Below are positions 442-40,191 of a stretch of 41,602 bases of DNA, piece after piece. Each line of letters opens with the position of its first letter. The stretch's first letter is position 1. The stretch spans positions 1 to 41,602 of the forward strand of contig CALLDL010000035.1 in the NCBI GenBank assembly GCA_937998305.1, in the 5' to 3' direction. The position numbers and the translations under genes were made by a program. Under the pieces are notes generated by a model that saw nothing but the letters and a program-made list of their open reading frames with translations, had not been told where the DNA came from and ran no database searches. Source of the DNA: an uncultured Desulfobacterales bacterium (GTDB taxonomy: Bacteria > Desulfobacterota > Desulfobacteria > Desulfobacterales > UBA11574).

Positions 442-1305
442 ATGACTTCACCAAGGACATTGCTTGCTGCACATAATATTCGCCCCAAGAAACAACTGGG
501 ACAGAATTTTATCGTCGATCCGGCTTTTACTGAGATGATTGTAAAACGTGCCGGTATATTACCCGCAGATATTATTCTGGAAATCGGAGCAGGGTTGGGT
601 GCGCTGACCATTCCTCTGGCTCGCAGAGCCAAGAAAGTTTTTGCGGTTGAAAAAGATCGCCAAATCATCCCTATTTTAAAAACGGAGATTCTCGTCAACG
701 GTCTTACAAATATTTCCATTATTGAAAAAGACATAATGTCATTAGATATAAAAGCGCTGGTAGAAGACATGGGCAAAAAAATAGTGGTCATGGGCAATCT
801 TCCCTATAATATTTCTTCTCAAATTCTTGTTCAGCTGATTCGGTCAAGAGAGGGTATACGTCGGGCCGTTCTCATGTTTCAGAAAGAGCTGGCGCAGCGC
901 ATTACGGCAGAGACCGGATGCAAGGATTACGGGCGGCTTACAGTCATGTTGCGTTATTGTTCTGATATCAAGAAGCTGGTCGGTGTAAAAGCCTCTCTTT
1001 TTTTTCCAAAACCAAAAGTCGACTCTGAAATTTTGGAATTGAAATTTAAAAAAGAAATCGACCATAAGGCTGCTGATGAGGCATTTCTTTTTAAAGTGAT
1101 AAAATCGGGTTTCGGGAACAGACGAAAAACCCTGAAGAATGCATTGGCTGCAAGTGAACTCAATATTGACCCCAATACAGCAAAGGGGGTACTTGAGAAG
1201 TCGGGTATCGATCCTATTCGTCGTGCTGAGACGCTTACTGTGGAAGAGTTTGTAAAACTGAGCAACACCCTAATTGAGAGTAAACAAAACCGAGAACGAT
1301 CGTAA
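442..1305 (+). CDS. rsmA: 16S rRNA (adenine(1518)-N6/adenine(1519)-N6)-dimethyltransferase RsmA/KsgA
   Basis: Dimethylates two adjacent adenines in the 3' terminal helix of 16S rRNA late in 30S assembly, using S-adenosylmethionine. The 287-residue length is normal for the family. Visible motifs: KKQLGQNF at 16-23, the SAM-binding motif I LEIGAGLG at 46-53, acidic E70 at the end of strand 2, and the catalytic motif IV NLPYNI at 119-124; the C-terminal third is the usual helical rRNA-binding part. ATG at 442 follows AGGG-type bases at 429-432, a modest ribosome site. It is convergent with the M16 peptidase, with palindromic element A between them. Nothing looks damaged. Confidence 0.97.
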   Translation: MTSPRTLLAAHNIRPKKQLGQNFIVDPAFTEMIVKRAGILPADIILEIGAGLGALTIPLARRAKKVFAVEKDRQIIPILKTEILVNGLTNISIIEKDIMSLDIKALVEDMGKKIVVMGNLPYNISSQILVQLIRSREGIRRAVLMFQKELAQRITAETGCKDYGRLTVMLRYCSDIKKLVGVKASLFFPKPKVDSEILELKFKKEIDHKAADEAFLFKVIKSGFGNRRKTLKNALAASELNIDPNTAKGVLEKSGIDPIRRAETLTVEEFVKLSNTLIESKQNRERS

Positions 1306-1403
1306 TATATTTGTTTCAATTAGTGTTCTGATGATTCGACTTTATTTAATATCTCTATCAGCAGTGAAATATGAATTCTGCTATTTTATCTCGTTTTTGT
1401 TTA

Positions 1404-1524
1404 CCCTGCGGGAAAGCCGATGACACCCTATCTCCTTCGTTGCCGAGGGCTCGCGGTAGCCGACTACAGATTCGCCCTCGGATGCCTTGGATATGGGATA
1501 TCCTCGACTTTCGCTCAATCAGGG
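1404..1524. repeat. Palindromic element A (core plus locus-specific arms)
   Basis: Imperfect long inverted repeat between the convergent ends of rsmA and the M16 peptidase gene, ending 13 bases from the peptidase stop. The outer ends are CCCTG and CAGGG, with further pairing blocks GAAAG/CTTTC and ACCCTAT/ATATGGG. The centre holds the family core: CCGAGGGC pairs with GCCCTCGG around an apical GTAG-ccga-CTAC. The same core with different stem bases occurs in elements B, C and H. It probably also acts as a two-way transcription barrier between the converging genes. Confidence 0.8.
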
Positions 1525-1537
1525 AAAAATTTGCTTG

Positions 1538-4447
1538 TTATTGCGGTTTTATAATAATTGTTGCAGCCTTATCGTTAACCAGATATTTTTTCGCGATATT
1601 TGACACCCTTTCCTTTGTAATAGAAGCATAATCCTTCAATATTGTCCGGCTCCAGTCTATCTTTTGGGGATGTATTTTGGAACCTGTAAGAACCGTATCG
1701 AGCCAGTAACTGTTTTTTCGAAACATGTCTTTTATGCTGGTCAGTGTCGGTTCTTTGGCCCGTTTCAGTTCATCCTGGGCAACACCATTTTTTGCAATAT
1801 TTGATACGATTTTTTTTATCTCTTTTATGATCATATCCGACTCGTTAGGGTCAATGTAGGCCATCGCCTGAAGGACGCCATATCCCGGATAGGCCCTGCT
1901 CGGCCTGTTAAACGCAAAGCTGGAATATGCAGACCCCAGCTTTTCTCGTATCTGCTCACGAAATCTGTCTGAGATAATATCCGACAGAATAGACAAACGA
2001 CGCGTCCGGTTGATATTCCAAATATCTTCCGTTGGATAAGCAACAATTATGAGTCCTTTTAAAACTTTTGTCCGAACGGATATGGTCTGGGATTGACCAA
2101 CGGGAAAAACGGGCAGATTTAATTCTTTTTGTGTGTTGACAACGGGGTGCAAAGTGAGGCTTCCAAAATATTGAGCCGTTAATTGGATGATTGAATCGAT
2201 ATCAACATCTCCGACAACTGAGACTTCAATGTCATTATTTCCAATGAATGGGCTGATCCATGATTTAATATCATCAAGGGTCAATTTCTTGAATGTTTCA
2301 TCATCGGGAAGGCCGAATCGATGGTCTCCTCCGGCAAGAAAACGACTGCCGGAAAGTGCCATTGCTCCGTCGATTGATCTGGAAAGTGCCATGTATTTTT
2401 GCCTGTATCGTTTCAAAGAGAGCTCATAAGCATCATTTCTAAAGCCGGGATCCATAATATGGGCGTAAAGAAGTTGAAACAGCAGAGAAACTTCATTGGA
2501 AACGGTTTCTCCTTTGAATAAAAAGCGATCTTCGTCAATACTAAAAGTGGCGTAGGTGTTTTTGCCGGCCAGGGCCCACTTAAGTTCGTCTTTTGTGAGG
2601 GTGCCGAGACCGCTTTCATTAATGACGTTTTCGGTTAACAAGGCCAGGCCCGGTTTGTTTAAAGGCTCACAGGATTTGCCCCGTCCAAAGGAAAGATTAA
2701 TCAATACTTGGTTGGCCTTAAAATCGGTTTTTTTGAGGTTCAGGCGGACACCGTTTTTTAAATCCACCTGGGTAATTTCAAGATCAGGGATCTTTTTTGT
2801 CCGTGTAATACGGCCTTCTTTTTTGGGTTCGGGAAGATATGGAAAAACAACCGATTTCCCCTCAACCGGTCTTGATAAGGCGGCGCGCATACTTTTATGG
2901 TAGGTGTTCAATATTTTCGTTTCGGGATTTTTATCTGTCAGTTTTGCGTTACCGGTGACAACCAAAATCCGGTGTTCGGGGGCCCAAATATCTTTGAAGG
3001 CATCGTGTACATTTTTTAATGTCACCATGTTGATTATCGGAGTATACAGTTCTTTTTCCTGTTGTGGCGACATGAAAACATGGTTCGTGTTCAGGCTCCA
3101 GATGATCTCCCTCGCCAGCTTTTTGCTATTGCGCGTAGAAGCTCTTTTGACAGCATTATCCAACTCAGAAAGAAGATCCTTTTTTACCCTCGCCAGTTCC
3201 GATGTTGTAAAACCGAATATCAATGCCTGCCTTAAGGTTTGTTCGATGATTGAAAGCGATTGCTCCCAGTTTTCGGGATTGCAATCTGCTGTGATGTTGG
3301 CATATTTGACTTGACGAAGAAAAATTCCCGAGCTTATGGATGCTGATGTGAAAGGGGTTCCGGGTTTTTGTATTAATGTGTCGAGTCGATACTTTACCAT
3401 TCGGTTAGCAATATCCTCGATCAATTGTTTTTTTCGAACATCGTATGAATCGGGCATGGATAAAATCTTTTCTAAGATTTCAATGCTTACCGTCGTATTT
3501 CCTAATTCTTTTTCAAAGTGGTAGAAAGATTTTATACCTTTATGCTTTATATCTCCGAGATCAGGAATTGTTCCGGGAGGGGCACGGGGGGTTAATGTAG
3601 AAAAATTATCTTCTATAAGCATTCCCGCCAATTCTGCGTTAAAATCTCCAACCAAAACAAGGATCATATTATCCGGTCGATACCAGGTGTCATAAAACGC
3701 TTTGAATTGCTCTTGGTCGGCCTTTTTGAGTATTTCTTCCCGACCGATAGGAAGTCTTTTTGATATTCTGGCATCTGGGAATTCAAATTCGAGTGTTTTG
3801 ATATATGTTCGATAGGATGCTGAATCCCGAGTCCGTTTTTCAGAGAGAACGACGCGTCGTTCTCTCTCGATTTCAGATGGCAGCAAAAGGGCCCCTTCAG
3901 CAAAATCTTTCATTACAACCAGACCCTTTGCCAGGTTTTCCTTGGTCCCTTCAGGTAAAAGAATGTCATAGACAGTTTCATTAAACCCGGTGTGGGCATT
4001 TGCGTCCGCTCCAAACTGCATCCCGATACTTTGAAAAAATTTTACTAGTTCCGCAGGTTTGAAATGTGTTGAGCCGTTAAACAGCATATGCTCCAGAAAA
4101 TGCGCCAACCCCTGTTGACTGTCAGACTCATGGATTGAACCTGCCTGAATATAAAGATGCATACTCACCCGGTTTTTCGGGTGTTGATTTTTCAATAATA
4201 TATATGCAAAACCATTGGGTAATTTTTTAAACACAAGGGCCGGATCAGGATGAAGATCCCCCTTTTTAAAGGACCATAGATCTAAAGAACTGTTGTGTTC
4301 AACGGCATGATTTACATTGGAAAGATGTTTGGCGGGATTTGATGATGCAATACTTTTATTGATAAAAAAACAAGCCAGTAAAGCAGCAACAATTAAAACA
4401 CTGAATGAAAACTTTACCGAAAAAACGTCAATACGCTTTTTTAACAT
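1538..4447 (-). CDS. M16 family zinc metallopeptidase (pitrilysin-like), exported or lipid-anchored
   Basis: Full-length M16 peptidase with two tandem M16 halves. The active N-terminal half has the inverted zinc motif HFLEH at 116-120, with E196 (75 residues after the second His) as likely third ligand; the C-terminal half lacks the motif, as is normal. I chose ATG 4447 (969 residues) because GGAG lies 7 bases upstream, whereas the longer frame adds only six residues without a ribosome site. Residues 11-30 form a signal or anchor segment containing LLAC at 23-26, a possible lipobox, so the product acts outside the cytoplasm. A 9-bp hairpin (CCGGTTGAG/CTCAACCGG, 4470-4495) lies in its 5' leader. 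Substrate unknown. Confidence 0.93.
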   Translation of the reverse strand: MLKKRIDVFSVKFSFSVLIVAALLACFFINKSIASSNPAKHLSNVNHAVEHNSSLDLWSFKKGDLHPDPALVFKKLPNGFAYILLKNQHPKNRVSMHLYIQAGSIHESDSQQGLAHFLEHMLFNGSTHFKPAELVKFFQSIGMQFGADANAHTGFNETVYDILLPEGTKENLAKGLVVMKDFAEGALLLPSEIERERRVVLSEKRTRDSASYRTYIKTLEFEFPDARISKRLPIGREEILKKADQEQFKAFYDTWYRPDNMILVLVGDFNAELAGMLIEDNFSTLTPRAPPGTIPDLGDIKHKGIKSFYHFEKELGNTTVSIEILEKILSMPDSYDVRKKQLIEDIANRMVKYRLDTLIQKPGTPFTSASISSGIFLRQVKYANITADCNPENWEQSLSIIEQTLRQALIFGFTTSELARVKKDLLSELDNAVKRASTRNSKKLAREIIWSLNTNHVFMSPQQEKELYTPIINMVTLKNVHDAFKDIWAPEHRILVVTGNAKLTDKNPETKILNTYHKSMRAALSRPVEGKSVVFPYLPEPKKEGRITRTKKIPDLEITQVDLKNGVRLNLKKTDFKANQVLINLSFGRGKSCEPLNKPGLALLTENVINESGLGTLTKDELKWALAGKNTYATFSIDEDRFLFKGETVSNEVSLLFQLLYAHIMDPGFRNDAYELSLKRYRQKYMALSRSIDGAMALSGSRFLAGGDHRFGLPDDETFKKLTLDDIKSWISPFIGNNDIEVSVVGDVDIDSIIQLTAQYFGSLTLHPVVNTQKELNLPVFPVGQSQTISVRTKVLKGLIIVAYPTEDIWNINRTRRLSILSDIISDRFREQIREKLGSAYSSFAFNRPSRAYPGYGVLQAMAYIDPNESDMIIKEIKKIVSNIAKNGVAQDELKRAKEPTLTSIKDMFRKNSYWLDTVLTGSKIHPQKIDWSRTILKDYASITKERVSNIAKKYLVNDKAATIIIKPQ

Positions 4448-4573: not shown

Positions 4574-4718
4574 TACAAGGCATCTCAAAAATACATCTAA
4601 CGCCCAATTACGGTGTTCCGAGCCTCTTCAAAATACTCACTACTCCCTGCATACAGCGCTTTTTCATTTGCTCGCGCCTTGTCCTTGGACGTAATCTGCA
4701 TTTTTGAGATGGCTTGTA
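4574..4718. repeat. Palindromic element I
   Basis: Arms of 25 bases at 4574-4598 and 4694-4718 pair with four mismatches (shared block CATCTCAAAAAT). A second arm pair, ATTACG/CGTAAT, is offset by an eight-base insertion on the left. The interior has CGAGC and GCTCG, then CGCCTTG as seen at the edge of the other cores, but lacks the GTAG-CTAC apex. The minus-strand frame reads ITSKDKARANEKALYAGSS and is open, but has no start or ribosome site of its own that I trust. It lies between the M16 gene and the histone-like gene. Confidence 0.7.
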
Positions 4719-27283: not shown

Positions 27284-27829
27284 ATGCAAAAAGAAGTTAT
27301 GTTTGCCGGATTTGGTGGACAAGGCATTCTGTTGATAGGGAATATCCTTGCACACACTGCTATGGAAGAAGGTTTTGAAGTCGCCTGGGTTCCGTCATAT
27401 GGTCCGGAGATGCGAGGCGGGACCGCATATTGCCTGGTGGTAATCAGTGACCGACCCATTGGTTCGCCGATTGTCAGGAACCCCATGCATCTTATTGCCA
27501 TGAATCGTCCTTCTTTGGAAAAATTTGCACCGGTGATAAAGCCAGACGGTGTTGTGGTGATTAACAGTTCATTAATCCCCGTATCCTCGGGTCGTGATGA
27601 TGTTGATGAATTGTTGGTGCCGGCAAATGATATTGCAAAAGATTTAGGGAGTGTGAAGGTTGCCAATATCGTGGCGCTTGGCGCTTTCGTTGCCCGAAGC
27701 AAAATTGTCGATTTTGAAGGGATACGAAAGTGTGTGCAAGAGCAGTTTGCTTCAAAGGAAAAGCTTATTCCCATCAATATGGCAGCGCTTGATGCGGGCA
27801 AAAAGGCCGCTAACCCGAATATTTCATGA
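27284..27829 (+). CDS. 2-oxoacid:ferredoxin oxidoreductase gamma subunit; C-terminus supplied by element D
   Basis: 181 residues. N-terminal GFGGQGILLIGNILA and GPEMRGGTAYCLVVIS are the gamma-chain hallmarks, ending in the usual KLIPINMAALDAGKKAA. The last codons (NPNIS plus the TGA stop) lie inside the left arm of palindromic element D, so the repeat sets where translation ends. AGGAGG precedes ATG 27284, 15 bases after the beta gene. Function with the alpha, beta and delta chains as above. Confidence 0.94.
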   Translation: MQKEVMFAGFGGQGILLIGNILAHTAMEEGFEVAWVPSYGPEMRGGTAYCLVVISDRPIGSPIVRNPMHLIAMNRPSLEKFAPVIKPDGVVVINSSLIPVSSGRDDVDELLVPANDIAKDLGSVKVANIVALGAFVARSKIVDFEGIRKCVQEQFASKEKLIPINMAALDAGKKAANPNIS

Positions 27830-27892
27830 AAACTTTCGAGAAGGCCTTCTTGCTATTAATGAACGCTTCGCACACGTGAAATATCCGGGTTA
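27811..27892. repeat. Palindromic element D (CCCGAATATTTC family, short form)
   Basis: The arms TAACCCGaATATTTCatG (27811-27828) and the inverted copy at 27875-27892 pair at 15 of 18 bases. The centre holds the 12-base perfect palindrome AGAAGGCCTTCT (27839-27850). The left arm overlaps the gamma-subunit stop. The same ends, CCCGAATATTTC and GTGAAATATCCGGG, bound the longer element C after guaB. Confidence 0.85.
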
Positions 27893-32226: not shown

Positions 32227-33117
32227 ATGTTCTCACGCAGGCATCCATATCTTTTTTTCATACTGATCTTTACCACAGTTGTTGCCACAGCAATGATATT
32301 AATGGCTTTTCTTGTTACGCTCAGTACAAGAGATACTGAGTTTGAGTTTGGAGAAAAAGTCGGCGTTATAGAGATAAACGGTATTATTGCAGATTCCAAA
32401 AACATCCTTAATCACCTCAAGCGTTTCCGTGAAGATAATGCTATAAAAGCGATCGTCGTTCGAGTCGATTCACCCGGGGGCGCTGTGGGCCCGTCACAGG
32501 AAATATTCAGGGAGATCAGAAAGACATCCGCCACAAAGAAAGTGGTGGCTTCCATGGGTACCATTGCAACATCCGGAGGGTATTATATCGCTGCCGGGGC
32601 AAATGGAATTATAGCCAATCCCGGGACCATAACCGGAAGCATCGGTGTTATTATGGGTTTTACGAATTATGAGGAGCTGCTTCATAAAATCGGATTGGTT
32701 CCAATTGTTGTAAAGAGCGGTGAGTACAAGGATCTCGGATCGCCCGTTCGAGAGATGAAACCTGAAGAGAAAATCATCCTCCAGGAATTTGCAAAAAAAA
32801 TCCACAGGCAATTTATTAAAGATATCGTTGACGGGCGAAAGATGGATATGGAAAAGGTAGAATCGCTAGCCGACGGACGTATTTTTACCGGCCAAGAGTC
32901 AAAAAAATTTGGCCTTGTGGACCGTCTCGGAAATTTAGAAGATGCAATTGAGTGGGCAGGCCGACTCGGCGGAATAAAAGGGAAGATTGCCACAGTTTAT
33001 GCTAAGGAGAAAAATTTTTCCCTTTTAAGATATATTACGGATTCATCTGCCGGGACTTTATTAAACCATATTCTTGATCCGAAATTATCGGCAGACTATA
33101 TATACAAACCGGAATAA
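32227..33117 (+). CDS. sppA: Signal peptide peptidase SppA (short, 36-kDa type)
   Basis: Inner-membrane serine protease that degrades leftover signal peptides. 296 residues: one N-terminal membrane anchor (about 9-31), then the ClpP-like fold with VDSPGGAVGPSQE, the nucleophile serine in TSGGYYIAAGA, TGSIGVIMG, and the general-base lysine in KSGEYKDLGS. This is the single-domain form seen in Bacillus and many Desulfobacterota rather than the double-domain E. coli form. No clear ribosome site before ATG 32227. Element B begins on the base after its stop codon. Confidence 0.93.
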   Translation: MFSRRHPYLFFILIFTTVVATAMILMAFLVTLSTRDTEFEFGEKVGVIEINGIIADSKNILNHLKRFREDNAIKAIVVRVDSPGGAVGPSQEIFREIRKTSATKKVVASMGTIATSGGYYIAAGANGIIANPGTITGSIGVIMGFTNYEELLHKIGLVPIVVKSGEYKDLGSPVREMKPEEKIILQEFAKKIHRQFIKDIVDGRKMDMEKVESLADGRIFTGQESKKFGLVDRLGNLEDAIEWAGRLGGIKGKIATVYAKEKNFSLLRYITDSSAGTLLNHILDPKLSADYIYKPE

Positions 33118-33244
33118 ACCCTAACATTGCAAAAGCCCATGCTACCGTAATTCCTTCGTTGCCAAGGGTTCGCGGTAGTTTACTACAGCGTCACCCTTGG
33201 ACACCTTGGACTTACGGCATCCTAAGCTTTTGCAAGGTTAGTGT
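33118..33244. repeat. Palindromic element B, abutting the sppA stop codon
   Basis: The arms ACCCTAACaTTGCAAAAGC (33118-33136) and their inverse (33226-33244) pair at 17 of 19, followed inward by CCGTAA/TTACGG. The core has CCAAGGGT paired with ACCCTTGG around GTAG-ttta-CTAC. The first base follows the sppA TAA directly. Likely acts as an mRNA 3' end or transcription barrier. Confidence 0.88.
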
Positions 33245-33309
33245 AAACCCAATTGTTGCATCAATAATACATCGAGGATTTGTTGCGAGAATAAAATAGG
33301 AGACCTTTG

Positions 33310-33946: not shown

Positions 33947-33970
33947 GGCAATCCTTTTGAAAACATTACC

Positions 33971-34169
33971 GCTTCAGGTATAATTAAATTTTTACTGGAA
34001 GAACTCGTGAATAAGGGCTCGTAATGAAAGAACCTATCCGGGCTATTAATAAAAGCCTATGCTTTAACAGGCGATTTCATCCATAAAATTAAATCGCCGA
34101 AGGTTCTTTCAAAACGATCCCTAATTCACTCAGACAGCTTCCAGACAAAAATTTAATCATACCTGAAGC
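33971..34169. repeat. Long-arm inverted-repeat element E (E/F family)
   Basis: 199 bases. Left arm starts GCTTCAGGTATAATTAAATT and runs about 60 bases to AAAGAACC; the right arm is its imperfect inverse ending CATACCTGAAGC. Blocks CTGGAAG, CGTGAATaAGGG and CTCGTaATGAAAGAACC are kept. The loop holds its own stem, GGCGATTT/AAATCGCC. It matches element F in arms and length but not in loop. It lies between the YciO-like gene and guaB. Confidence 0.88.
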
Positions 34170-34464
34170 TCCTTTGAAACCGATTTGTTTCACAGGATAA
34201 AACTATCATCATAACATATGGATAGATGTATTTATTATGGGTACCGGTATAATGTCAAGGCAAGGCTGCTGTGATTTTTGTTAATATAATTATATTATTG
34301 ATAAAAAATGCGGTATTTCAAATGGTTACAATAGATAGCGCCGCCTACCCTAATAAAGATTGCAAAAGATAAATCTATTTGTTATGCGATACTATCTTAC
34401 TCAAGTTTCGCACCCGAATATTGATAGAAAGCCTTATTTGAAATAACGATTATTGGAGGAACCC
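34170..34464 (+). promoter_or_regulatory. guaB upstream region with a 16-base AT palindrome
   Basis: 295 bases between element E and guaB. TAATATAATTATATTA (34282-34297) is a perfect palindrome and could be an operator, though AT-rich sequence makes this easier by chance. The guaB ribosome site GGAGG is at 34455-34459. I could not place the promoter hexamers confidently. Confidence 0.4.
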
Positions 34465-35928
34465 ATGAAAAAAATACCGCCTGAAGAGGCGTTTTCTTTT
34501 GATGATATTTTATTGCTCCCGGGCTACTCAGATGTTTTGCCGAGAGATGTTGACACCCGCTCTCCTTTAACAAAAAATATTACATTGAACATTCCTCTTG
34601 TTAGTGCAGCTATGGATACCGTAACCGAATCAAGAACTTCCATCAGCATGGCTCGCGAAGGCGGAATCGGTTTCATCCATCGAAATCTGAGTGTTCAGAG
34701 TCAATCGGTTGAGGTTGACAAGGTGAAGAAATCTGAAAGCGGTATGATTGTTGATCCGGTAACCATTCATCCGGATCAGTTTGTTCATGAAGTGTTACGC
34801 CTGATGAAAAAGTATCGCATTTCAGGGGTTCCGGTGACCAAAGGAGACAAATTGGTAGGCATTGTGACGAACAGAGACCTGCGATTTGAGATAAATCTCG
34901 AAAAAAAGATTTCCGAGGTCATGACAAAGGAAAACCTTGTTACGGTTTCAGAAGGAATTACACTGGAAGATTCAAAAAGTCTGTTGCATAAACACAGGAT
35001 CGAAAAGCTCCTGGTGGTTGACAACAAAGATCGTCTGATCGGTATGATAACGATAAAAGATATTGAAAAATTAAAAAAATATCCAAATGCCTGCAAGGAT
35101 GAGTTGGGAAGACTCAGGGTAGGGGCTGCCGTGGGAGTGGGACCGGATATGGAAGAACGCGCAGAGACACTTTTGCTATCGGGTGCTGATGTTATTCTAA
35201 TCGATACCTCCCATGGACATTCTAAAAATGTGATTGAGGCTGTCAAAATATTAAAAAGCAATTTCAAAAATATCGAACTGATTGCAGGGAATGTGGGTAC
35301 GGCGGAGGGGGCTGAAGCGCTGGTTAAAGCAGGTGTGGATGGAGTCAAAATCGGAATTGGACCTGGATCAATTTGCACTACACGCATTGTGGCGGGTGTC
35401 GGCGTTCCGCAGATTACAGCGATCATGAATTGCATCGAGGTATCCAAGAAAACAGGCATACCTTTGATTGCAGACGGTGGCATAAAATTTTCAGGGGATG
35501 TGACAAAAGCGCTTGGCGCAGGTGCCCATGTGGTGATGATCGGAGGGCTTTTTGCCGGAACTGAAGAGAGTCCGGGAGAGTTTGTTATTTATCAAGGCCG
35601 CAGTTACAAAGCCTATCGGGGTATGGGATCCATAGAAGCCATGCAGAAAGGAAGCAGAGACAGATATTACCAGGATGAAGATCCCCATGGTGACAAAATG
35701 GTCCCGGAAGGTATCGTCGGCCGGGTACCTTACAGAGGAAAACTGGCGGACAATATTTTTCAGCTCATCGGTGGATTAAAGGCGGGTATGGGATATGTGG
35801 GATGCTGTACTCTGGATGAACTCAGAGAAAAGGCTCGCTTTGCAAAGATAAGCGCAGCAGGTATGCGTGAAAGTCATGTTCACGATGTAATCATCACCAA
35901 AGAGGCACCAAACTATCGTCTTGACTAG
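34465..35928 (+). CDS. guaB: Inosine-5'-monophosphate dehydrogenase
   Basis: Oxidises IMP to XMP with NAD+, the rate-limiting step to GTP. 487 residues from ATG 34465, with GGAGG five bases upstream; a longer TTG frame would start inside the ribosome site. The TIM barrel is split by a CBS pair (about 93-205: [20 protein letters not shown], then [17 protein letters not shown]). Catalytic Cys loop [15 protein letters not shown], phosphate site [18 protein letters not shown] and the flap after it are intact. Element C begins on the base after its stop. Confidence 0.97.
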
Positions 35929-36184
35929 CCCGAATATTTCATGAAAATTTTCGAGGGGCCTTTTTATTAGTCATGGAAACAGTTTGTTATTTTAAAATTT
36001 GCTTTTAGTTTTAAGGTGACGGTTTGGACCGAAAGTTTTTTTGTTCAATTTCTCAAAATTTTTCACACTACGGGCGCGTGCAAGGCGCCCATTTGCCGCG
36101 TTATCAAGGGCTTGCAGTAGTTTACTACGGCTGCGCCCTTGAATGCCTTGCAAATGAGCGCCTCTCACACGTGAAATATCCGGG
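35929..36184. repeat. Palindromic element C: composite, abutting the guaB stop codon
   Basis: The outer ends CCCGAATATTTC (35929-35940) and GTGAAATATCCGGG (36171-36184) are the same as in element D. Nested inside is an 81-base unit (36083-36163) with arms AGGCGCcCATTTGC and GCAAATGaGCGCCT and the core TCAAGGGC/GCCCTTGA around GTAG-ttta-CTAC. The whole looks like one element placed within another. It starts on the base after the guaB TAG. Confidence 0.88.
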
Positions 36185-36215
36185 ATCGGGTTTAATGCAA
36201 CTTTGACAATTGATT

Positions 36216-36412
36216 GCCTCAGGTGTGATTAAATTTTTGCTGAAAGAACTCGTGGATAACGGCTCGTAATGAAAAAACCGGTCTTATCTTTTAATAACCG
36301 TGAGTGATTCAAGACAATAGGTTCGTTTGGCGTCGAATCGATTGGGATTTTTTCATAACGATCCCTAATCCACTCAAACAGCTTCCAGTAAAAAATTAAT
36401 CACACCTGAGGC
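36216..36412. repeat. Long-arm inverted-repeat element F (E/F family)
   Basis: 197 bases. GCCTCAGGTGTGATTAAATT at the left pairs with the inverse at 36393-36412, with blocks CTGnAAG, CGTGGATaACGG and CTCGTaATGAAAaAACC matching element E. The loop is different from that of E. It ends 76 bases upstream of the dnaE start, so dnaE must be transcribed through it or from the short stretch after it. Confidence 0.88.
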
Positions 36413-36488
36413 TCCATTAACATCAGTTTGTTTCAAAAACCTAAACAGTTACGGATTAATCTTATTCATAACAATACATACTCATAAA

Positions 36489-39400
36489 ATGACTCAAGCA
36501 TCACCCCACTTTGTTCATCTTCATGTCCACACCCAATACAGTCTTTTAGATGGTGCTATCCGGATTGATCCTTTGTTAAAGCGTGTCGCCGATTTTGACA
36601 TGGATGCTGTGGCGATTACCGATCACGGCACCATGTTCGGAGCATTCGAGTTTTATGAAAAGGCCAACAAAGCCGGGATAAAACCGATTATCGGTTGCGA
36701 ATGTTATCTGGCGCCGAGACGTCATACCGACAAAACCCCCCTTGATAAAAGCGGACTTTCACATATCATCCTTCTGGCGGAAAATCAGGAAGGATATCGA
36801 AATCTATGTAAACTGGCGGCCATTGCCCAGCTTCATGGATTTTATTACAAACCCCGCATCGATAAAGAACTTCTAAAACACCACAGTAAAGGACTTATCG
36901 GCCTGTCAGCATGTCTTCACGGTGAAATTCCAAGGCTGATTCAGGAAGGTCGAATCGATAAAGCTGATGAAGCTGCGCGTGATTACCTTAATGTTTTTGG
37001 TGAAGGGAATTTTTTTCTGGAAGTTCAAAACAACGGTATCGATATTCAGGAGGCGGTAAACAGAGCACTGCTGGATATGAGTCAAAGACTTTCCATTGGG
37101 CTGGTTGCTTCGAACGATTGTCATTATCTCGACAAGGAAGATGTCCGTGCCCACGATGTCCTGTTGTGTGTTCAGACCGGAAAAACGGTTCATGATGAGA
37201 ATCGGCTCAAATTCAGAACCGATCAACTCTATCTAAAATCTAAACCAGAGATGTATGGCGCTTTTAAGGATTATCCGGGGGCAATGGAGAACTCCGTGGA
37301 TATCGCCAGGCGCTGCAACCTGGAATTCGATGTTAAATCCTATCACTTTCCGAAATTTGATGTTTCATCAGACCATACTGCAGACGAGATTTTTGAGCAA
37401 CAGGTCAGGGGTGGATTTAAAAGCCTCATGAAAAGCATAATGAACAAAAATCCAAATACCGATGAGAAGCTTTATAATGATCGAATTGAAAATGAAATCG
37501 ATATCATTAAAAGCATGGGCTTTTCAGGTTATTTTTTGATTGTGGCCGATTTTATTCGCTATGCCAAAAACAACGGTATTCCTGTCGGGCCTGGAAGAGG
37601 GTCGGCCGCCGGAAGTATAGTGGCCTATTCTCTTGGAATTACCGATCTGGATCCCATTGAGCATGGTCTTATTTTTGAACGCTTTCTCAATCCTGCCCGC
37701 AAAAGCATGCCGGACATTGATGTCGACTTTTGTATCAACGGCAGAGAGGATGTCTTTAAATATGTGGTTGAAAAGTATGGGGGGGGTGATTATGTCGCCC
37801 AGATCATCACATTCGGAAAATTGAAAACCAGGGCCGTCATTCGTGATGTCGGCCGTGCTTTGGATATACCCCTTAAGGAAGTGGATGCCATCGCTAAAAT
37901 GGTACCGGATGTGTTGAACATCGGTCTTGATGATGCGTTACAACAGGAACCCAGGCTTAAGGAACTGGCAAAAAAGAAGCCTGAAGTTGCCGATCTTATC
38001 AGTGTTTGCCGCGTATTGGAAGGGCTTCCAAGACATGCTTCGACGCATGCTGCGGGTGTTGTCATTGCAGACAAACCGCTGGTTGAATATATGCCCCTTT
38101 ATAAGGGTAAAAAAGGCGAAGTCGTCACCCAGTTCGACATGAAATGTGTTGAAAAGATCGGCCTTGTCAAGTTTGATTTCTTGGGTCTTCGCAATTTAAC
38201 TGTGATTGCGAAGACCCTGAACCTTATCGCAGCCCAAGGGGGCACGCCTCCGGATCTTTCAAACCTCGATTTTAACGATGCTGACACGTATCATCTACTT
38301 GCTTCCGGTGAAACAACGGGCGTATTTCAGCTGGAAAGTTCAGGCATGAAAGATTTGTTGGTGAGGCTAAAACCGGAAACCTTTGATGAAGTCATTGCAC
38401 TGGTTGCGTTATACCGACCAGGCCCCTTAGACAGTGGAATGGTTGATGATTTTGTTGAAAGAAAGCACGGAAAGAAATCGGTGGAATACATTGTTCCCCA
38501 GCTTGAACCGATTTTGAAAGAGACATACGGGGTGATCGTTTATCAGGAACAGGTGATGAAAATTGCCGGTGATCTGGCCAATTATTCCATGGCCGAGGCC
38601 GATGATCTTAGAAAAGCGATGGGGAAGAAAATTCCCGAGATTATGGCCATGCATCGAGAACGTTTTATGCGGGGGGCGTCAGAAAACGGCATTCCATCCG
38701 ACAAGGCCGGGAAGATGTTTTATCTCATGGAAAAGTTTGGGGGATATGGATTCAACAAATCCCATAGTGCGGCATATGCATTGATAGCATATCAGACCGC
38801 TTTTTTGAAAGCGCATTTTCCGGTAGAGTTTATGGCCTCATTGCTGACCAGTGAGATGCATTCGATAGACGGTGTTGTCAAATATATCGCTGAATGTCGC
38901 AGCCACGGTATTGAAGTATTGCCTCCGGACATCAATGAAAGCGGGAAAGAATTTACCGTCACCGGTTCAAAAATAAGGTTCGGACTGGTTGCAGTGAAGA
39001 ACGTTGGAGAAAATGCCATTGAATCTATTATTGAGGTCCGGCATAATGGGAAATTCTCCTCTTTGTTTGATTTTTGTGAGCGAGTCGACCTGAAAAAAGT
39101 TAACAAACGTGTTGTAGAAGGCCTTATTAAATGTGGCGCATTTGATATAACGGGAAATTATCGTTCACAAATGATGGCATCTTTAGAGGACTGCATCGAT
39201 TACGGACAACGTGTTCAAAAGGAGAGGACGGATCCTCAAATGGGATTGTTCAATCTAACTGAAGAACAAAAAGCCTTTAACTTGCCGTCCGTGCCTGAAA
39301 TCGATGAGTGGGATGAAAAAGAGCTTTTAACCCTTGAAAAAGAATCACTTGGGTTCTATATCACCGGGCATCCATTAAGCAGATATGAAAATGTTCTGGA

Positions 39401-40010
39401 AAAGTTCACCAACACAAACTCGGTGAAACTAAAAGAACAAAATGACGGTGATGCCATTAGGATCGGCGGTATGGTCAGAAACACCAAAATCATAAAGACC
39501 AAAAAGGGCGATTTAATGGCTTTTGTTACACTTGAGGATCTGCATGGTGCAGTTGAAATTACCATCTTTTCATCGCTTTATTCAAAAGTGTATGATCTTT
39601 TGACAGATGATAGTGCCATTCTGGTTCGAGGACACCTTCAAAAGGAAGAAAATTCAGCAAAACTATTGGCGGATACCGTCATACCCATGGAGAAAGCCGA
39701 GGAGATCTGGACCACAAGTATCCATTTGAATCTCGACATCGCCCACACTGATAAAGCGTTGTTTGAAAAACTGAATACCGTATTAAAAAGACATCCAGGT
39801 TCCTGCAAAGCTTACATTCACTTGATGAGTCCTGAAAAAACAGAGACGATTATTGCTCTGTCTGACACGATAAAATTAAAAGCCGGTTCTTCATTAATTC
39901 GAGACGTGAACCGGCTTGTGGGATACAATGCAGCTGAAACGGTTTGTCGTCCGGTTGAGTCTTCTTCAACATTTAATGTTTATAATGGGAAGAGAAGGCG
40001 AAAAAGATGA
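36489..40010 (+). CDS. dnaE: DNA polymerase III alpha subunit
   Basis: Replicative polymerase, 1173 residues, full length for the DnaE1 group. N-terminal PHP domain with HVHTQYSLLDG (about 11-21) and TDHGTMFG; polymerase core with GPGRGSAAGSIVAY and catalytic aspartates in PDIDVDF; YRPGPLDSGM and GYGFNKSHSAAYALI in the fingers; helix-hairpin-helix region; OB-fold domain near 995-1075 (IRIGGMVRNTKIIKTKKGD); C-terminal clamp/tau-binding part. ATG 36489 gives the normal N-terminus but has no ribosome site, so weak or leaderless initiation is possible. Element F lies upstream and H begins on the base after its stop. Confidence 0.97.
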   Translation: MTQASPHFVHLHVHTQYSLLDGAIRIDPLLKRVADFDMDAVAITDHGTMFGAFEFYEKANKAGIKPIIGCECYLAPRRHTDKTPLDKSGLSHIILLAENQEGYRNLCKLAAIAQLHGFYYKPRIDKELLKHHSKGLIGLSACLHGEIPRLIQEGRIDKADEAARDYLNVFGEGNFFLEVQNNGIDIQEAVNRALLDMSQRLSIGLVASNDCHYLDKEDVRAHDVLLCVQTGKTVHDENRLKFRTDQLYLKSKPEMYGAFKDYPGAMENSVDIARRCNLEFDVKSYHFPKFDVSSDHTADEIFEQQVRGGFKSLMKSIMNKNPNTDEKLYNDRIENEIDIIKSMGFSGYFLIVADFIRYAKNNGIPVGPGRGSAAGSIVAYSLGITDLDPIEHGLIFERFLNPARKSMPDIDVDFCINGREDVFKYVVEKYGGGDYVAQIITFGKLKTRAVIRDVGRALDIPLKEVDAIAKMVPDVLNIGLDDALQQEPRLKELAKKKPEVADLISVCRVLEGLPRHASTHAAGVVIADKPLVEYMPLYKGKKGEVVTQFDMKCVEKIGLVKFDFLGLRNLTVIAKTLNLIAAQGGTPPDLSNLDFNDADTYHLLASGETTGVFQLESSGMKDLLVRLKPETFDEVIALVALYRPGPLDSGMVDDFVERKHGKKSVEYIVPQLEPILKETYGVIVYQEQVMKIAGDLANYSMAEADDLRKAMGKKIPEIMAMHRERFMRGASENGIPSDKAGKMFYLMEKFGGYGFNKSHSAAYALIAYQTAFLKAHFPVEFMASLLTSEMHSIDGVVKYIAECRSHGIEVLPPDINESGKEFTVTGSKIRFGLVAVKNVGENAIESIIEVRHNGKFSSLFDFCERVDLKKVNKRVVEGLIKCGAFDITGNYRSQMMASLEDCIDYGQRVQKERTDPQMGLFNLTEEQKAFNLPSVPEIDEWDEKELLTLEKESLGFYITGHPLSRYENVLEKFTNTNSVKLKEQNDGDAIRIGGMVRNTKIIKTKKGDLMAFVTLEDLHGAVEITIFSSLYSKVYDLLTDDSAILVRGHLQKEENSAKLLADTVIPMEKAEEIWTTSIHLNLDIAHTDKALFEKLNTVLKRHPGSCKAYIHLMSPEKTETIIALSDTIKLKAGSSLIRDVNRLVGYNAAETVCRPVESSSTFNVYNGKRRRKR

Positions 40011-40134
40011 CCTAAGTTGAGCGATTGCCGATTTTACCGAATCTGCTGTGTTATGAGACATTTGCAGTAGCAGACTACGGCTGAATGCCTCATGCCTTGC
40101 ATCTCCAGCAAACTCGACAATCGCTCAACTTAGG
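40011..40134. repeat. Palindromic element H, abutting the dnaE stop codon
   Basis: Perfect 17-base outer arms CCTAAGTTGAGCGATTG (40011-40027) and inverse (40118-40134), the same arm type as element G. Core TGAGaCATT pairs with AATGcCTCA around GTAG-caga-CTAC, a heavily changed but still paired version of the A/B/C stem. The first base follows the dnaE TGA. Confidence 0.9.
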
Positions 40135-40191
40135 GATGAATATTCGAACAGCGACTTGAGTTTAAAATAAGGAAGGGATAATTTGCCTACT

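Follow-up and report, generated by a model that had tools for sequence, protein, structure and literature searches.

What are the hairpins that recur at four places along one contig of an uncultured Desulfobacterales bacterium, and what keeps their stems paired while the letters of those stems change? The window analysed here is a stretch of 41,602 nucleotides (contig CALLDL010000035.1 of assembly GCA_937998305.1, positions 1 to 41,602), in which a sequence-only reading had recognised four related hairpin cores, A, B, C and H. They belong to a group of small, gene-less mobile hairpin elements that is found in many sulfate-reducing bacteria, often at the stop codons of genes.

The four cores form one family with genuine covariation. 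They align over about 70 positions, with the apex GTAG-nnnA-CTAC invariant among them. A covariance model, R1, was built from six copies; its positions 1–70 correspond to the core hairpin of C (36091 to 36160, forward strand). This hairpin, denoted P4, is made up of an outer stem, an internal loop (CGTTA/ATGCCTTG), a covarying 8-bp stem, an R.R mismatch and the GTAG-nnnA-CTAC apex. RNAalifold places 19 pairs in the six copies, with both sides changed in eight. Across 90 distinct rows from other genomes, standard pairs fill 93.3% of the core cells, whereas shuffles reach 81.6% and slid pairings no more than 50.5%; GTAG is nearly invariant. Both-side changes occur in 12 of the 19 core pairs in these rows, a level reached by none of 500 shuffles, which bears out the earlier proposal of one family whose stem sides change together. 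Of the individual pairs that had been singled out, 10:44 and 15:39 (alignment columns 22:56 and 27:51) behave as described, and 8:46 (column 20:58) holds for A, B and C; H reads U.C there, at a place where its alignment is ambiguous owing to a 1-nt deletion. At loci L055, L082, L083, L087, L088, L090, L091, L093, L094 and L095 small secondary hairpins lie within the loops of the core hairpin; they are of the types CCCCGC..GCGGGATCTTCGAC, GGAGGTTTATCCCGC..GCGGGGC and CCTACGGCCTGACTCCTACGG, and the core stems are apparently intact.

The copies in the window score 92.9, 83.4, 80.6 and 70.5 bits with R1. Many further intergenic copies had been predicted, and the covariance search recovered about 72 matches (E≤0.1) across the 3.35 Mb of the genome to which the window belongs (about 65 element copies in this MAG) and up to 89 matches per genome in relatives. 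In an order-wide survey of 389 genomes, in which at most 12 candidates were scored per genome, at least one copy was present in 178 genomes and in 80 of 150 genera (R1, E≤1e-5). The records that carry names are mostly Desulfobacterales MAGs; a few contigs are labelled Aminicenantes, Acidobacteriota or Planctomycetota, and these copies may reflect transfer or mis-binning. A search of viral contigs and plasmids gave no match.

Homology among the copies stops sharply at two sizes. The 226 copies that were dissected comprise 184 long forms (mostly 250–259 bp) and 42 short forms (mostly 120–129 bp). The elements in the window, and a remnant without a core, are as follows (the helices P1 to P4 are described below; TIR, terminal inverted repeat).

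1268–1524, forward strand: element A, long form, 257 bp
Within A: left TIR CCCTAATTGAGAG at 1268; P2 strand from 1281; P2 return strand to 1403
Within A: P3 (CCC-TGC-GGG) at 1404–1412; core P4 at 1430–1499; right TIR ending GCTCAATCAGGG at 1524
27814–27889, forward strand: core-less remnant with C-type ends CCCGAATATTTCATG...CACGTGAAATATCCGGG; flanks CTAA/TTAA
33119–33243, forward strand: element B, short form, 125 bp; core 33149–33218
35929–36184, forward strand: element C, long form, 256 bp; core 36091–36160
40011–40134, forward strand: element H, short form, 124 bp; core 40041–40109

The limits drawn earlier were too short for A, where the start at 1404 is that of P3, and for C, where the unit at 36083–36163 is only the core of the long form; B, given as 33118–33244, was close but not exact, and H agrees.

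Element B starts 2 nt past the stop codon of an S49 peptidase ORF (ending at 33117), and element C starts at the next base after the stop codon of an IMP dehydrogenase ORF (34453–35928). The TGA stop codon of the DNA polymerase III alpha gene (dnaE, 36489–40010) lies in the 5-bp target duplication of H, GATGA, at 40006–40010 and 40135–40139. Element B is bounded by a 4-bp duplication, TAAA, at 33115–33118 and 33244–33247, and the flanks of A show no clear target duplication. The left end of A overlaps the last codons of a KsgA-like ORF (442–1305); this ORF stops inside the element (1268–1305), and either its last codons are element-derived or the gene was trimmed by the element. The core-less remnant sits at the 3' end of a POR-like ORF (27284–27829). 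Core-less derivatives with the same ends are also seen as pairs of the family-1 ends introduced below, 42–150 bp apart, in this genome (G000) and in G001, G002 and G003 (G003:C17:3356-3397, G002:C624:3308-3358, G001:C442:4911-4978, G000:C10:9489-9637).

Other repeats share the window. At 33953–34206 and 36204–36452 lies a palindromic repeat unrelated to the hairpin elements, about 250 bp long with ends near GCCTCAGGTRTGATTAAATTTTT, which has very many copies in the five genomes of the genus. Since the two ends of the contig (159–303 and 41458–41602) are repeat copies that are 94% identical, the contig was probably broken at a dispersed repeat.

The copies start with CC and end with GG, and are bounded by 13-bp TIRs, for example CCTAAAYTGAGCG, CCTGAATYTTGCA, CCCTAWCGTTGCA and CCCGAATATTTCA, among others. 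In the genome of the window a perfect 5-bp target duplication flanks 11 of 53 copies, compared with a maximum of 4 in permutations (n=500). When all copies are considered, a 5-bp duplication accompanies CCT-type ends in 38 of 98 cases (background 2.4) and a 4-bp duplication accompanies CCC-type ends in 27 of 71 (background 3.5), two counts that are slightly favourable, as the boundary finder gave a small bonus for matching flanks, which the 11 of 53 did not receive. Empty and filled orthologous sites were found for H and C among genomes of the same genus. The H site reads GATGA-[H]-GATGA in the genome of the window and in G003, and a single GATGA in G002 and G004; the C site is empty in G002 (...GACTAG directly followed by GGTTTAATG...) and occupied by a short form in G004. 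Element B is found in G002 and G003, and G004 has another element at the same stop codon. Being short, devoid of a transposase gene, bounded by TIRs and target duplications and absent from some orthologous sites, the hairpin units are MITEs, that is, non-autonomous transposons. The idea of one repeated structured family is kept, with the correction that the outer arms are transposon ends and not only a structural stem.

The fold of the long copies (about 255 bp) is an exact four-way junction, in which P1 is formed by the ends. Along the element the order is a 13-nt end, P2 with a loop of about 90 nt, the mini-hairpin P3 (CCC-TNC-GGG), P4, and the other end. Among 84 long copies, 76 have P2 beginning precisely at nucleotide 14 and its return strand running right up to P3. 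The sequence of P2 is wholly different among subfamilies (TTTCAAATAGTGAC/GTCACCATTTGAAA, TAAACAAAATGGGG/CCCCATTTTGTTTA and TGAAAATTAATGAGAA/TTCTCATCAATTTTCA) while the pairing is kept: 82.2% of cells are Watson-Crick, with a covariation score of 0.612 compared with at most 0.123 in shuffled and at most 0.113 in slid controls. A P2 strand pairs with its own partner at 11.5 of 14 positions, but with the partner from an element with different ends at only 6.1 of 14. The short copies (about 124 bp) lack exactly P2 and P3, and in at least three subfamilies inspection of the sequences shows the 13-nt end joined directly to P4.

P3 has the general form CCC-NNN-GGG, with a TNC loop in 91 of 143 cases. 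Its complement is CCC-GNA-GGG, and GNA triloops closed by G-C pairs belong to a class of DNA mini-hairpins of extraordinary stability (PMC4686876); in 76 of 143 cases the read strand is compatible with an RNA UNCG loop. P3 can be taken for an RNA UNCG tetraloop, but CCT-TTC-AGG variants suit a 3-bp stem with a TNC triloop at least equally well, so that P3 favours neither RNA nor DNA.

The pattern of the ends, together with duplications of 4–5 bp, suggested IS1380 as the partner of these elements. The best-known insertion sequence of the IS1380 family (family model NCBIfam NF033539) is ISEcp1. It duplicates 5 bp of its target and can use, in place of its own right end, a sequence that merely resembles it (PMC2887853). 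IS1380 transposase loci from the order were inspected for flanking repeats with duplications. Locus L251 (end sequence CCTAAATTGAGCG) has the ends CCTAAATTGAGCGAAT/CCTAAGCTAAGCGAAT and the target duplication ATAAT, its end being that of family 1 of the MITEs, and locus L244 (end sequence CCTGAATTTTGCA) has the ends CCTGAATTTTGCACGC/CCTGAATTTTGCACCT and the duplication TAAGA, its end being that of family 2. The ORFs of both loci are IS1380 transposases above the NCBI curated cut-off. Further IS1380 ends lie close to MITE ends (CCTAAAAGTTGCA, CCTGAATAATTCA and CCCGGATCCTGCA). One genome, G248, holds four 1777-bp copies of the L244 element with the same ends at separate sites, each with different flanking duplications.

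The IS1380 elements and the MITEs have in common the terminal repeats starting with CCT or CCC, two 13-bp ends that are identical between them, and the duplications of 4–5 bp; in contrast to the insertion sequences, the hairpin elements have no transposase, and nothing is shared beyond the ends. A simple internal deletion of these insertion sequences was rejected as an origin: the R1 core is absent from 53 of 53 IS1380 loci, and the sequences just inside the ends differ between the IS1380 elements and the hairpin elements. The IS1380 elements with matching ends are in other genomes of the order. No IS1380 transposase (PF13701) was found in the genome of the window (an 88.6% complete MAG) or in relatives of the same genus, and in G008, a single-contig genome with 53 copies, none exceeded the cut-off; a pair of family-1 TIRs 1–3 kb apart around a transposase was not seen in the genus among the exact matches listed. 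Across the 389 genomes, the presence of IS1380 and that of the element are not associated (42 genomes with both, p=0.21). Because the ends are identical to those of intact IS1380 elements, IS1380 transposases are the likely movers of the MITEs, and mobilisation was probably by transient IS1380 partners.

Long copies whose interiors are 88–92% identical can carry ends that are only 38–62% identical; for pairs with interiors at 88% identity, that of the TIRs falls as low as 38–54%. In L108 and L140 the interior is 92% identical up to a shared ...CTCGACTTT, after which the sequences read TGCAACGTTAGAG and CGCTCAGTTAGGG, respectively; at the left end a matching switch falls precisely on nucleotide 14. 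The 13-bp end behaves as an exchangeable cassette, both ends being swapped together, and the family thus seems to pass between IS1380 partners. The route of exchange may be recombination, stepwise co-adaptation or conversion inside the P1 stem.

The two strands of the elements are not equivalent. On the read strand, A.C mismatches outnumber G.U pairs by 25:11 in P2 and 23:9 in P4 (events per cluster), and the ratio in P1, 36:27, is not significant; A.C mismatches of the read strand are G.U (or G.T) pairs on the complement. By folding energy the complement is the more stable strand for 137 of 151 long copies and 39 of 42 short ones; with shuffled sequences subtracted, the same holds for 14 of 15 clusters (Wilcoxon p=0.0006), although most copies fall in two large clusters, leaving a modest number of independent cases. 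Individually, C and A show no clear difference between strands, and the strands of H differ (−50.0 vs −69.5 with RNA energies, −30.7 vs −35.6 with DNA energies). These values point to the complement of the read strand as the folded one. The asymmetry favours one single strand, which would fold in the cell as ssDNA or RNA, over a symmetric DNA cruciform. The proposed maintained fold in RNA or cruciform DNA is borne out in its architecture, with a symmetric cruciform the less likely form.

None of the 226 dissected copies lies inside an ORF, as judged with a simple ORF caller. For 21 of the 42 short copies the left end is −15 to +10 nt from the stop codon of a gene reading in, and one short copy has such a stop codon at its right end. 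Long copies also abut stop codons (35 at the left, 20 at the right). Stop-codon sites are common to unrelated mobile families: an inverted-repeat family, AAGCYATCTC...GAGATRGCTT, seen in the window at 4574–4718, in L340 near 120–300 and in L347 near 3690–3920, occupies in G003 and G004 the stop codons at which the genome of the window has C and B.

It could be proposed that the element is a functional cis-acting or antisense RNA spread by transposition, with the four-way junction of the transcribed complement serving the host or the element. The architecture and loop sequences are conserved across the order, P2 and P4 covary, the G.U-type asymmetry favours the complement, and short forms stand directly behind stop codons in one orientation, upstream genes reading into them by 29:7. 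However, long forms have no orientation preference relative to genes (82:79), which makes a general cis role unlikely; the strand of the short forms that belongs to the upstream mRNA is the one that folds worse (39 of 42); and the Rfam covariance models, run against the window, report nothing over the hairpin elements at E≤1. We regard this explanation as rather doubtful.

Covariation alone is no proof of function, because stem correction during the replication of palindromes could also yield it, and such quasi-palindrome correction is an established mutational process. The elements could accordingly be ordinary MITEs in which the fold is a by-product of intrastrand template switching at palindromes, without selection. 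P1, P2 and P4 all covary, including arms with no need for recognition by a protein, and the same process could account for both ends changing together. It should, however, erase mismatches and internal loops that are in fact kept order-wide, namely the R.R mismatch, the internal loop CGTTA/ATGCCTTG and the nnnA loop at the apex; the borders of the P2 helix are exact despite the loop of about 90 nt, the types of mismatch are unequal between strands, and P3 keeps its TNC loop in most cases. A by-product of this kind is unlikely.

REP sequences and REPINs are intergenic hairpins with a GTAG tetranucleotide and strand-specific wobble pairs (PMC3733652), features that the present elements share. 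That these are REP-like elements processed as single-stranded hairpins by a RAYT/Y1 (HUH) transposase, with GTAG as its recognition tag, is highly improbable: the near-invariant GTAG, the single-strand folding with a strand preference and the abundance of Y1 genes in the order would fit, but GTAG lies at the hairpin apex and not at one terminus, TIRs and 4–5 bp duplications are not products of HUH single-strand transposition, which the empty sites contradict too, and a profile search for the RAYT/Y1 gene that had been suggested as a check found no PF01797 gene in G000, G001, G003 and G004 (incomplete MAGs with 19–72 copies each). The earlier judgement that this is not a standard REP is correct, REPs lacking the TIRs and target duplications seen here.

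Further known systems can be compared with the elements. Tn3-derived TIMEs are non-autonomous, have TIRs and 5-bp duplications and spread between genes, with 38-bp Tn3 ends; the ends of the hairpin elements are instead 13 bp long and identical to those of IS1380 elements. For integron attC sites, the boxes RYYYAAC and GTTRRRY are not consistent among subfamily ends (by inspection only), and TIRs with a duplication count against attC. Bacterial MITEs of the kind of ERIC/IRU, Correia and QMITE2 also include YPAL. ERIC/IRU (127 bp), Correia and QMITE2 are short, palindromic, intergenic, high-copy MITEs with stem-loop transcripts and frequent 3'-UTR positions (PMC10969869). The hairpin elements are likewise short, palindromic, intergenic and of high copy number, the likeness to ERIC/IRU being one of size and palindromy only; unlike these MITEs they keep one interior across more than 80 genera (80 of 150 by R1) while the helix sequences change fully, and they have exact domain borders, a separable P2 and P3 module and exchangeable ends. 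A review of bacterial MITEs does not mention IS1380 MITEs (PMC10969869), and no earlier report of the hairpin family was found in the openly accessible literature searched. As a MITE the element is of a known kind; the conserved junction fold together with exchangeable ends is new.

The reading that we prefer, and hold with high confidence, is that of a MITE superfamily, most likely mobilised in trans by IS1380 transposases, in which the interior is a conserved structural module and the ends are exchanged together. At some time an IS1380 transposase in the lineage would have recognised the 13-bp ends, excised or copied the element and placed it into A/T-rich targets, of which 4 or 5 bp were duplicated. 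Insertions at stop codons would survive because the duplication restores the stop codon. The interior fold would be kept while the interior sequence drifts, and a lineage that gains the ends of another IS1380 element would acquire a new transposase partner. We infer that the fold aids the persistence of the element, through mobility or through tolerance beside genes. A bolder version is possible and is put forward tentatively: a 'hermit-crab' element, an order-wide non-coding DNA module whose single-stranded four-way junction (the complement, as ssDNA or RNA) is active in its own spread and which takes new 13-bp ends for different IS1380 transposases.

MITEs are usually regarded as decaying derivatives of insertion sequences with an unimportant interior. 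Here the opposite is seen: in at least 80 genera covariation maintains a single interior whose ends change, a pattern that resembles SINEs exploiting different LINEs. The finding accounts for a large class of hairpins behind Desulfobacterales stop codons that might otherwise pass for terminators or regulatory RNAs; the R1 covariance model can be used to annotate them. If confirmed, it would make a bacterial non-autonomous DNA transposon a lineage of its own, carried by successive transposases and endowed with a testable structural module.
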